49,410 nt of DNA from Myxococcota bacterium (GTDB lineage Bacteria; Myxococcota_A; UBA796; UBA9615; JAKLKC01): assembly GCA_023150875.1 (NCBI GenBank), contig JAKLKC010000051.1, positions 1 to 49,410 of the forward strand, in the 5' to 3' direction. The translations under genes were made by a program, and so were the position numbers. Shown here in pieces: positions 20,105 through 40,012 of the stretch. The stretch's first letter is position 1, and each line of letters starts with the position of its first letter. The notes beneath the pieces are model-generated. The model had not been told where the DNA came from. It saw only the letters and a program-made list of their open reading frames with translations, and made no database searches.

Positions 20105-20689
20105 GTGGGCAGAGCGACCACCCCATCACCCGACTGGGACCGCCTCTTCGAGGTCGCGGCGGCCCAGGAAGGGCTCTTCACGACGCGGCAGGCGGCCGAG
20201 GCCGGTTACTCGCCGCAGTTGCTCGCGCATCACCTGAGGGCGGGGCGAATGCTCCGGGTGCGACGCGGCGTGTACCGCCTCGTGCACTTCCCAGCGGGCG
20301 ACCACGAGGACCTGGCGGCGATCTGGCTCTGGTCGGAGCGGCAGGGGGTGTTCTCTCACCAGACCGCGCTCGCTCTGCACGACCTCTCGGACGTCCTGCC
20401 GGCACAGGTCCACGTCACGCTTCCGGCGGCGTGGCACAAGCGGCGGCTACGCGAACCGGAGGGGGTGGTCCTGCACTACGGCGACATGGCCGAGAGCGAC
20501 TGGCAATGGTTTGGGCCCGTGCCGGCGACGGCGCCGCAGCGCACGCTGGAGGACTGCGCGGCGGGGCACCTCCCGCCCGAGCTGCTGCGGGGGGCCGTCC
20601 TGGACGCACTGGACCGCGGTCTGGTCGCGCGCATCGACCTCGCCGCCGTCGAGGCCGCGCTCTCGCCCTTCGGAGGGCTCGCGCCATGA
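20105..20689 (+). CDS. abiEi: AbiEi-type antitoxin/transcriptional regulator
   Basis: 194 residues. The N-terminal winged-helix domain (AAAQEGLFTTRQAAEAGYSP, then LAHHLRAGRMLRVRRGVYRL) is typical of type IV antitoxins that repress their own promoter. A C-terminal domain follows (GVFSHQTALALHDLSDVLPA, VHVTLPAAWHKRR, GLVARIDLAAVEAAL) that counteracts the nucleotidyltransferase toxin in the family. It appears intact. Its TGA overlaps the ATG of the toxin gene (ATGA, 20686-20689), the usual arrangement, but that toxin is truncated. Confidence 0.87.
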   Translation: MGRATTPSPDWDRLFEVAAAQEGLFTTRQAAEAGYSPQLLAHHLRAGRMLRVRRGVYRLVHFPAGDHEDLAAIWLWSERQGVFSHQTALALHDLSDVLPAQVHVTLPAAWHKRRLREPEGVVLHYGDMAESDWQWFGPVPATAPQRTLEDCAAGHLPPELLRGAVLDALDRGLVARIDLAAVEAALSPFGGLAP

Positions 20690-21309: not shown

Positions 21310-21376
21310 GAGTCGGTAGCGGACGGACTTGGCTTGGCGTAGGCTCCAACTTGGTCCAGGAGCACCGGCACAACCC
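21055..21376. other. 322 bases without a recognisable gene
   Basis: Probable leftover IS or junction DNA. The only visible structure is a pair of CGTGAGCGG direct repeats at 21112-21120 and 21136-21144. A possible AGGAG ribosome site for the next gene lies at 21357-21361. No recognisable protein remnant on either strand. Confidence 0.5.
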
Positions 21377-22732
21377 ATGTCCCCGACTCCCCCCCGCAGC
21401 GGTCCTGCCATTGCGGACACGCTTGTCGCCGAGGCCGCGCAGGAGTTGCCCGAGCCCATCGTCCTGAACCACTGTACAGTGGTGGGGCAGGTGGTCAATT
21501 TCGACCGGCGGTTCGTCCAGGAGTTCACCCTTCGCCTCAAACCCTCCCACCTATCAGCGAAGGCCAGGAGGTCCCTTCTTCCCCGGGATGGCGACATCGG
21601 TCCCGCCAAAGCGCGGCTCCTTCATGCTCTATGGCGGGCATCTGAGCCAGACTCCGGTAATCGTGCGGGCAAGGGGTCTTGGCTTAGCCACGAGGACCTT
21701 CGCAGCGCTGGCATCGTCACCGCAAGAGACTTGGCACCGGTCCTCAGTGACTTACGGAGGCGCCTGTGCATTAGCGAGAAGCACCTAGAACTGGCCTCCG
21801 ACCTGATTCCAGACTATGTGCGAACAAAGAGCGATTCGCTGCGGGGGTTGTGCGCACAGTTCGACCGGACAGCACAGCCCAAGCTGACGACGGACCAAGC
21901 CCAAGCCGGGCACCCTCACGTCGTTGGCGGCAAGCCGATCCGGTTCGATAGCCTCTTGGACCTGCTGTTCTCGCTTCCCCCGTCCCCTATCTCCAGAGAG
22001 GCGGATGGGATTCGTGTTCTCACGCCGCGCCTGGACCTCGTCTTCGTGTTCGGTAGCAGCACTCACGCATTGGCGACAAACCACGCTGCCTTCGCCTGCG
22101 ATGCCCTGTGGACGCACGAGATTGCCACGGTGCTGCAACATCGAGCCCCGCCCGATACCAAAGTGTACACCCACTGCCGCCACGACTGCGACTTCCTGCA
22201 CGAAATCAAGGACCCTACCAGCCTGATGTCCCGGCTGCAACCGCACGTGGTGTCAATGGGCATGGGCGATGTGAACTCAGTGACTGCCGAGATCTTCAGG
22301 TGCCACGCGCATGTTGACCCGGACATGGAGGGTGACTGGGTGTCTCCGCTTCAGCCGCGGGTGTACGCGCCCAAGTCGTCCGTCATCATCGTTTCTCCCA
22401 CTGAGCGCCTCGAACCGACCGATGATCGGTCGTTCGGCTGGCTGTGTGGGGTGCGAAGCCCGTTCTTCGACAATAGAGTCTCCGTCATCTGTGCGGGGAC
22501 GAACGGCACGGGTACCACTGCGGCCGCCTGGGCACTACTGCAGAGCCTGGACCTGGACGCCGCAGATCATGGGTGGGCCTCACTTCCGGTGGGCAATGCG
22601 GTCGTCATCGCCAGGGAGGTAGCAAAGTCGATTTCACGCGGAGATCTAGTCAAGATTGGGGGCATCCGGTATATGTCTGTGAGCGGGCGTCCCGAATGCG
22701 TCGAATGGTACGAAGCCCATCGCAGCTCTTGA
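21377..22732 (+). CDS. Unrecognised 451-residue protein with winged-helix and Rossmann-like parts
   Basis: Lower GC and looser codon use than all neighbours, suggesting transfer. The N-terminal ~70 residues are beta-rich (NHCTVVGQVVNFDRRFVQEF). Residues ~75-135 look like a winged helix (AKARLLHALWRASEPDSGN, SHEDLRSAGIVTARDLAPVL). The C-terminal half has a loop MGMGDVNSVTAEIFR (~294-308), then FGWLCGVRSPFF (~354-364), then ICAGTNGTGTTAAAWALL (~371-388). This G-x-x-N-x-x-T ... G-x3-G-T-x3-A order resembles a nucleotide-handling Rossmann-like module seen with regulatory or conflict-system partners. No transmembrane segment. ATG 21377 is preferred over an upstream TTG (21329). I do not recognise the family; sensor or effector roles are both possible. 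Confidence 0.7.
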   Translation: MSPTPPRSGPAIADTLVAEAAQELPEPIVLNHCTVVGQVVNFDRRFVQEFTLRLKPSHLSAKARRSLLPRDGDIGPAKARLLHALWRASEPDSGNRAGKGSWLSHEDLRSAGIVTARDLAPVLSDLRRRLCISEKHLELASDLIPDYVRTKSDSLRGLCAQFDRTAQPKLTTDQAQAGHPHVVGGKPIRFDSLLDLLFSLPPSPISREADGIRVLTPRLDLVFVFGSSTHALATNHAAFACDALWTHEIATVLQHRAPPDTKVYTHCRHDCDFLHEIKDPTSLMSRLQPHVVSMGMGDVNSVTAEIFRCHAHVDPDMEGDWVSPLQPRVYAPKSSVIIVSPTERLEPTDDRSFGWLCGVRSPFFDNRVSVICAGTNGTGTTAAAWALLQSLDLDAADHGWASLPVGNAVVIAREVAKSISRGDLVKIGGIRYMSVSGRPECVEWYEAHRSS

Positions 22733-38763: not shown

Positions 38764-38792
38764 TTGACATCGTTCCGGAAATTCGCAACGAT
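38764..38792 (+). promoter_or_regulatory. vapB promoter with operator-like repeats
   Basis: A perfect TTGACA (38764-38769) and AACGAT (38787-38792) are 17 bases apart. Inverted arms ATCGTT (38769-38774) and AACGAT (38787-38792) border the spacer, which also contains the palindrome TTCCGGAA (38773-38780). CGTTCCG recurs at 38771-38777 and 38805-38811. Short repeats of this kind suit autoregulation by a ribbon-helix-helix antitoxin. Confidence 0.55.
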
Positions 38793-38846
38793 CCATTGAT
38801 GAAACGTTCCGCGCCCGGCCGCGTGGATCCACATCCGAGGTGCCCC

Positions 38847-39563
38847 ATGATCCTCGAACTGGTCGAGAGCCCGGACGAGGTCATCCGGTCCAGTGATGCG
38901 TTCCATAGGGAGATCCCGAGCGATCCCGACCCGGCGCGTCTGCTGGTCCGGAAGTCCTGGTACTTCGTGTACGACCCGGCACGCCGCCGGTTCACGCCCA
39001 GCAAGTGGGCAGGTTTCCGGGGCATGGACTCCGGGCTGTATGGGGCCGGAATCGATGGTGCCACCGATGGCGCTACCTTCAACGGAACCCGTGCTCGCGT
39101 CGCCGTGGAGAGGGCCCTGGGGACCCGCTTCCGCCCCGATCCGGTCCTCGACGCTGCCCTCGCCTCCTGGGCCAGGGAGACGTTCGGCGGAGACGTCCTC
39201 GACGGTGTCGACACGAGGAAGTGGAAGTACGTGAGGCTGCCGGAGCATGCCGACGCGAGCCGTGAGGCCGGGCAGTACTCCCCGGGAGCCGATCCGAGCG
39301 GCATCAGTCATGGTCCGGCTTGGGTGGAGATCAGTGTACCAAGATCGATCATGCACCGTGTGGAGCGGACCGCCAGCGCGACGGGGGACGGCGTTCGCAC
39401 CGTCGTCTCGCGGGCCCTCGCGGACTGGCTCGACCGCTGGGAGGCCGAGAACCGATTCCGACTTCGGGACGTCAGCTTCGGGGGTGACGGGCTGAACCCC
39501 GAGTTCGATGACGGCGACTGGGGCCGGATGCGCGAAGCGGCGTACGAGGGGCAAGGCGGATGA
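38847..39563 (+). CDS. VapB-type antitoxin with an extra N-terminal domain
   Basis: 238 residues, about three times the size of a normal VapB. GAGGTG lies seven bases ahead of the ATG. Residues ~159-196 form a ribbon-helix-helix (WVEISVPRSIMHRVERTASA, VVSRALADWLDRWEAE). Residues ~204-238 (FRLRDVSFGGDGLNPEF then DDGDWGRMREAAYEGQGG) are the toxin-binding tail found in antitoxins of PIN toxins. Residues ~1-155 are something else: KSWYFVYDPARRRFTPSKWA, GFRGMDSGLYGAG, then a helical part ending WARETFGGDVLDGVDTRKWK. The extra domain may be a DNA- or ligand-binding sensor; I cannot name it. The stop overlaps the toxin start (ATGA). Confidence 0.8.
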   Translation: MILELVESPDEVIRSSDAFHREIPSDPDPARLLVRKSWYFVYDPARRRFTPSKWAGFRGMDSGLYGAGIDGATDGATFNGTRARVAVERALGTRFRPDPVLDAALASWARETFGGDVLDGVDTRKWKYVRLPEHADASREAGQYSPGADPSGISHGPAWVEISVPRSIMHRVERTASATGDGVRTVVSRALADWLDRWEAENRFRLRDVSFGGDGLNPEFDDGDWGRMREAAYEGQGG

Positions 39564-40012
39564 TCGCGGTGGACACGCAAGTCCTCGTCTATGCCCATCG
39601 CCGGGACTCGCCCTGGCACAGCGAGGCCCGAAGTCGGTTGGCGGAGCTCGCAGAGGGCGACGCGCCGTGGGCCATCCCCTGGCCGTGCGTCACGGAGTTC
39701 CTGGCTGTGGTCACCCACGCGCGGATCTACCGACCGCCAACGCCACTCGCCGTAGCCCTGGAGCAGGTCGAAGCCTGGCTGGAGTCCCCGAGCGTCTCCC
39801 TCCTCGTGGAGGACGGCGCTCCCTGGCCCGAACTGCGGGACCTGCTGGCGGCGACCGGCACCACCGGTCCGACCGTCCACGGCGCCCGGACCTCGGTACT
39901 CTGCCGCTCTCGCGGAGTGACGACACTCTGGTCGGCCGACCGGGACCACAAGCGATTCCCGGGACTCCACGTCACGAACCCTCTCGCCGCCGTCCATCCC
40001 ACGCTCCGCTGA
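39560..40012 (+). CDS. VapC-type PIN-domain protein with a substituted active-site residue
   Basis: 150 residues. The PIN layout is clear: MIAVDTQVLVYAHRRDSPWH (D5), WPCVTEFLAVVTHARIY (E46), LWSADRDHKRFPGL (D127/D129). The third acidic residue, normally in VHDARI, is Gly108 here (TVHGARTSVLC), and the D-T-N of the first motif is D-T-Q. The protein is otherwise full length, so it may be catalytically impaired and act only in repression with the antitoxin, or use another acid. Its 3' end overlaps the convergent glycosyltransferase by 41 bases. Confidence 0.85.
   Translation: MIAVDTQVLVYAHRRDSPWHSEARSRLAELAEGDAPWAIPWPCVTEFLAVVTHARIYRPPTPLAVALEQVEAWLESPSVSLLVEDGAPWPELRDLLAATGTTGPTVHGARTSVLCRSRGVTTLWSADRDHKRFPGLHVTNPLAAVHPTLR

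Follow-up and report, generated by a model that had tools for sequence, protein, structure and literature searches.

The locus considered here raises the question of why an antitoxin of the VapB type should carry a long additional N-terminal part and what this part may do. The locus was analyzed within a window of 49,410 nt, the term denoting the whole stretch of Myxococcota bacterium DNA that was examined.

The fused antitoxin gene and the adjacent toxin gene

The antitoxin gene (gene position 38847–39563, plus strand) starts with an ATG at position 38847, ends with a stop codon at 39563 and encodes a protein of 238 aa. Residues 1–132 (38847–39242, plus strand) form an N-terminal domain, delimited by an AlphaFold model and by homologues found elsewhere. 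They are followed by a partly disordered linker (residues 133–158; 39243–39320, plus strand) with pLDDT values below 50 at residues 142–149 and 152–156, and then by the VapB part (residues 159–238; 39321–39560, plus strand), which was delimited by alignment and fold matches and includes a ribbon-helix-helix (RHH) motif and a toxin-binding tail. The motifs FVYDPARRRFTPSKWAGF and WARETFG are located at residues 40–57 and 108–114, respectively. The full-length AlphaFold model contains a confident N-terminal body; the linker is modeled with very low confidence at approximately residues 141–158, the two bodies of the protein being floppily joined.

The VapB part aligns without gaps with four short VapB proteins from the same class (L002–L005). 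In the full-length model, the RHH helices are placed at residues 166–179 and 183–202 and the tail helix at residues 225–233. A Foldseek search with the C-terminal half returned CopG, Arc, CdbA and VapB structures with weak E-values and probabilities of up to 0.96. As shown by the alignment and the predicted structure, the C-terminal part is a complete VapB with a putative DNA-binding RHH and a toxin-binding tail; the first-pass annotation had likewise confined the VapB elements to the last third of the protein.

The VapC toxin gene (gene position 39560–40012, plus strand) overlaps the antitoxin stop codon by four bases (ATGA). Its product is a PIN domain protein of the Mtu_PIN family (PF01850, E 5.8e-07; TIGR00028, 76.9 bits against a cut-off of 73.6) and matches the VapC43 structure 7vwo (E 1.2e-15). 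The codon GGC at 39881–39883 (plus strand) encodes Gly108 at the position of a catalytic aspartate in four close relatives, and the protein reads VHGAR vs. VHDAR in these relatives, which are 50–57% identical to it. The other acidic residues (D5, E46 and D127) are kept, leaving the catalytic acid set incomplete. Since the toxin differs from its relatives at this residue and the mutation D98K at the equivalent position of Rv2019 abolished toxicity (PMC5175181), the VapC of the window is probably weak or inactive.

GC contents at the three codon positions are 65/53/83% for the front domain and 71/53/83% for the VapB part. The front domain is considered to be coding because this is the composition of a coding sequence and because homologues with the same boundaries occur in other proteins; a mis-called frame is ruled out by these two lines of evidence. 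The first-pass annotation had named a mis-called start as the finding that would undo its proposal; as far as the domain as a coding unit is concerned, this objection does not hold, the boundaries being the same in homologues from other proteins. The cassette has a GC content of 67–71% (GC3 0.83–0.85) and the flanking glycosyltransferase genes one of 79–82% (GC3 0.93–0.96), a difference that fits acquisition of the cassette as a single piece. Elsewhere in the window, a protein resembling AbiEi-type antitoxins was noted by eye at 20105–20689; beyond this gene, the GC content is lower at 21–24 kb, a stretch that includes a 467-aa ORF of unassigned kind at 21329–22732.

Start sites and candidate operators were examined on the sequence. 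A Shine–Dalgarno-like GAGG (38837–38840, plus strand) is located 6 nt upstream of the ATG at 38847, and further in-frame starts occur upstream of it (ATG 38799 and TTG 38796). The first-pass annotation had called for a check on a start near 39320. An in-frame GTG does exist at 39324, at the exact VapB boundary, and would yield an ordinary short VapB, but no Shine–Dalgarno-like sequence was found before it. Upstream of the fused ORF, a candidate promoter/operator (38764–38792, plus strand) includes TTGACA (38764–38769) and a weak −10-like AACGAT (38787–38792), together with an imperfect inverted repeat of 9 nt (38769–38777/38784–38792), which is marginal, as 6% of shuffled sequences have one. 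A promoter consensus scan did not report the TTGACA/AACGAT candidate, and the promoter and operator assignment is suggestive only. In three relatives from the class of the window (L002, L003 and L004), a perfect palindrome, ATGGGTACCCAT, is located directly before or over the start codons of the short vapB genes and is likely their operator; it was searched for in the window and not found. An imperfect 18-nt palindrome, of a kind found in 2% of shuffles, is located 40 nt upstream of the GTG at 39324. The lack of a Shine–Dalgarno-like sequence at this GTG, the absence of the relatives' palindrome and the TTGACA and marginal inverted repeat that precede the long ORF favor the long protein without proving it.

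Thus, the locus resembles type II VapBC systems (RHH antitoxin, TIGR00028 toxin) in its RHH and tail, in the downstream VapC with an ATGA overlap and in a PIN domain above the cut-off. It differs from them in the extra 132-residue N-terminal domain, in the missing catalytic aspartate of the toxin and in the operator palindrome of the relatives, which was not found.

The front domain family

Single-sequence searches of Pfam, NCBIfam, PHROGs, PADLOC and PDB sequences gave no match to the front domain, which is termed the PSK domain here because of its motif FxPSKxxG. AlphaFold modeling of the domain with 44 sequences led to a model of high confidence (pLDDT 94.8, pTM 0.88). Neither Foldseek, at E-values below 3 for the PDB and below 4 for BFVD, nor VIA-align returned a similar fold. 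Pfam and Foldseek PDB searches revealed no kinship to the known modified-DNA readers (EVE, SRA, DUF3578, NEco and SBD), nor did Pfam find a DUF433 domain in the antitoxin of the window. Judging from the model, the domain appears to have no solved relative at Foldseek sensitivity; a new fold is unproven, and distant kinship to known modified-DNA readers may escape such a search.

Starting from a weak plasmid match (E 0.07), a stand-alone Kosakonia protein was identified, which in turn yielded further plasmid proteins; the chain of homologues was extended to a viral contig and to 45 loci in genomes of bacteria and archaea. The family alignments cover the same ~130 residues throughout. The search pattern itself partly ensured the motif F-x-P-S-K-x-x-G-[YF]; PSR and PAK variants also emerged from profile searches, to which this bias does not apply. 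The domain of the window shares 31% identity over 131 aa with L028 (E 1e-18) and 30% over 131 aa with the N-terminal domain of the McrB-like protein L093 (E 5e-13); in the profile match to the window domain, the window's own sequence was included in the profile. Residues F49, P51, S52, K53, G56 and Y65 are retained. The segment NGTRAR, seemingly foreign to the family, is common to the McrB relative, and the reading of T83A as a sign of decay was rejected because the same residue occurs in that relative. The net charge is mildly positive (+1 in the window, with a family mean of +2). The front domain is a real and widespread module of a family that is missing from the libraries searched. Alignments and models show that the N-terminal part is a separately folded domain of this uncatalogued family, joined to a VapB that is paired with a vapC gene, which bears out the earlier view of it as a domain in its own right.

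Approximately 28 of the 44 aligned rows are stand-alone proteins. The remaining partners include EVE with NOV_C (L028 and L035; EVE below its cut-off), NOV_C alone (L066), HNH nucleases (L032, L061, L077, L088 and L092, with Pfam scores below the cut-off in L061 and L088) and McrB-like GTPases (L047 and L093). The HNH fusion L032 matches type IV mREase models. In the planctomycete locus L093, the McrB-like GTPase (AAA_5, 1.2e-14) is directly followed by McrC (PF10117, 8.7e-32). A fusion to a DUF2089 zinc-ribbon HTH was found in L034, and L030 and L033 were assigned to the same type by sequence similarity; in these three fusions, located on viral contigs, the domain is C-terminal, an order opposite to that of the antitoxin and nuclease fusions. 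Finally, the domain is N-terminal on a DUF433 antitoxin at nine loci (L050, L060, L063, L067, L068, L071, L078, L084 and L086), each with a DUF5615-type PIN-like toxin gene directly downstream (9/9), where three antitoxins and two toxins were called by Pfam and the others by motif. Fusions to other antitoxins and to nucleases, which the first-pass annotation had proposed to look for, thus exist in both forms (DUF433 at nine loci; HNH, NOV_C and McrBC).

Two further arrangements were observed. On an archaeal contig (L046:2759–5531), the domain immediately follows the Walker A motif in an McrB-like frame, and another frame encodes the remainder of the GTPase, an arrangement that recalls the specificity inserts of McrB GTPases (PMC11090510). 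At L036:1918–3287, the gene of a stand-alone domain protein and the end of another gene overlap; in this partner gene, a PD-(D/E)XK-like motif, DxLIDIKT, was recognized by eye, and Pfam gave no match for it. The arrangement suggests a two-gene nuclease.

Origin and distribution of the antitoxin fusions

Phylogenetic analysis placed the domain of the window in a clade with the EVE-NOV_C proteins L028 and L035, the stand-alone proteins L036 and L037 and the McrB-like L090 and L093 (support 100/100), on a long branch and with L090 as its likely sister (support 81/88). The DUF433 fusions fall in another clade. A single origin of the RHH and DUF433 fusions was rejected (p-AU 0.0005), although this value is optimistic, since the antitoxin-fusion group was chosen after the first tree and the branches are long. 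Given the DUF433 fusions, each followed by a DUF5615 toxin, besides the RHH fusion, fusion to an antitoxin appears to have arisen at least twice.

The distribution of the RHH fusion is narrow: in the samples of the class, the phylum and neighboring groups it was found only in the window's own genome. A first genome scan with a single protein as the query found nothing. No second copy of the front domain was found in this genome, and phage records gave no match to it. Weak matches within the class (L006–L019) were judged by their E-values to be due to chance, and the reading frames of L006 and L014 had no relative. A PF10117 search of the own genome revealed one McrC homologue, located on a different contig (L094 on C114), and a PF13020 search of the genome revealed no NOV_C; thus, these searches yielded no restriction gene in the genome from which the domain might derive. 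In a set of 385 alphaproteobacterial genomes, the profile was positive in five, three of which contain DUF433 fusions (one of the three being the seed genome).

Possible roles of the front domain

The strongest evidence on the function of the front half, by analogy, is the position of its homologue in McrB. The closest relative of the window domain is an McrB-like N-terminal domain encoded beside mcrC, as in McrBC type IV systems and modification-dependent nucleases, and the N-terminal domain of McrB is a specificity module (PMC11090510, PMC7641849). Because the nearest relative sits at this specificity position, the role of the front domain is most likely nucleic-acid recognition, perhaps of modified bases. 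Unlike McrBC, the protein of the window contains no GTPase or nuclease; its homology to McrB is confined to the N-terminal domain. The DUF433/DUF5615 loci are similar in having the front domain N-terminal on an antitoxin with a PIN-like toxin gene next to it, whereas the antitoxin fold, the toxin family and the front-domain clade all differ from those of the window. The joining of a modified-base reader to PIN toxin–antitoxin parts has a precedent in PIN-GNAT-EVE/ASCH proteins (PMC7641849), although their reader domain and architecture differ from those of the protein studied here. The restriction-type position of the domain in other proteins and its repeated attachment to antitoxins of PIN-type toxins suggest, without proving it, that some toxin–antitoxin pairs have borrowed a foreign-DNA reader. 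Several points count against recognition: the charge is only mildly positive, the fold has no known DNA-reader match at Foldseek sensitivity, and the EVE-NOV_C proteins already have an EVE reader, so that the front domain could oligomerize or contact a partner there. In addition, the RHH fusion, being known from one genome, may not be maintained, and the substitution D108G in VapC makes it doubtful that the toxin of this copy works.

We give roughly even chances to a two-part antitoxin in which a complete VapB is combined with a nucleic-acid recognition domain that gives the complex a second address. As established for VapB proteins in general, the tail would cap VapC and the RHH dimer would repress the operon. 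The front domain would most likely recognize nucleic acids, as do the modules that direct McrB and other type IV restriction enzymes to their targets, and the second address of the antitoxin–toxin complex would plausibly be foreign or modified DNA. During invasion, such binding might, more speculatively, pull the antitoxin off its operator or off the toxin and so trigger the toxin. Since the toxin lacks one catalytic aspartate, this triggering step may already be dead in the present copy, perhaps leaving the protein with no role other than that of a DNA-binding regulator.

Autoregulation alone, with the front domain as a second DNA-binding unit for the protein's own operator and no sensing of invaders, is considered unlikely. 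It would have a precedent in the wHTH-DUF433 fusions, such as Rv2018, which place an extra DNA-binding domain on a PIN antitoxin (PMC2701414), and Rv2018 works as an antitoxin (PMC5175181); the candidate TTGACA with its inverted repeat and the joining of the front domain to an HTH in DUF2089 proteins also agree with it. However, most other partners are nucleases or McrB-like GTPases, for which recognition of a target, not binding to an operator, is required, and the operator evidence is marginal.

It is also improbable that the fusion is inert, that is, that a restriction-gene fragment encoding an N-terminal piece was joined in frame upstream of vapB, the toxin was inactivated and the locus has no function at present. 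The aspartate lost from VapC but conserved in four relatives, the non-toxic Rv2019 D98K (PMC5175181), the occurrence of the fusion in one genome and the long branch of its domain are in line with decay. Against this, both ORFs are intact with a coding-type codon-position GC content, the six motif residues are kept in a model of high confidence, NGTRAR is common to the McrB relative, and the DUF433 fusions indicate that antitoxin fusions of this kind recur and spread. Very unlikely is the production of a short VapB from the GTG at 39324 next to a separate or vestigial upstream protein: this codon lies at the exact VapB boundary, where related VapB proteins of the class start without the domain, and has the 18-nt palindrome upstream, but it lacks the Shine–Dalgarno-like sequence that is good at the ATG at 38847, no stop codon separates the two starts and the relatives' operator is absent nearby.

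The first-pass annotation had spoken of a distinct type of module, which was too strong in view of the Rv2018 precedent (PMC2701414), the RHH version in a single genome and the incomplete VapC. Beyond the two-part antitoxin, it can be tentatively proposed, as a somewhat doubtful generalization, that a recognition domain of McrBC and type IV-like nucleases, with no detected fold relative, has been repeatedly captured by antitoxins of PIN toxins and switches these modules through foreign or modified nucleic acid. This single copy is of less general interest than the domain family and its recurrent acquisition by antitoxins. A restriction-type domain on two unrelated antitoxin folds is a concrete and testable candidate for the trigger that activates chromosomal PIN toxin–antitoxin pairs. 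The domain family would also serve as a new module in the annotation of type IV restriction and defense genes.
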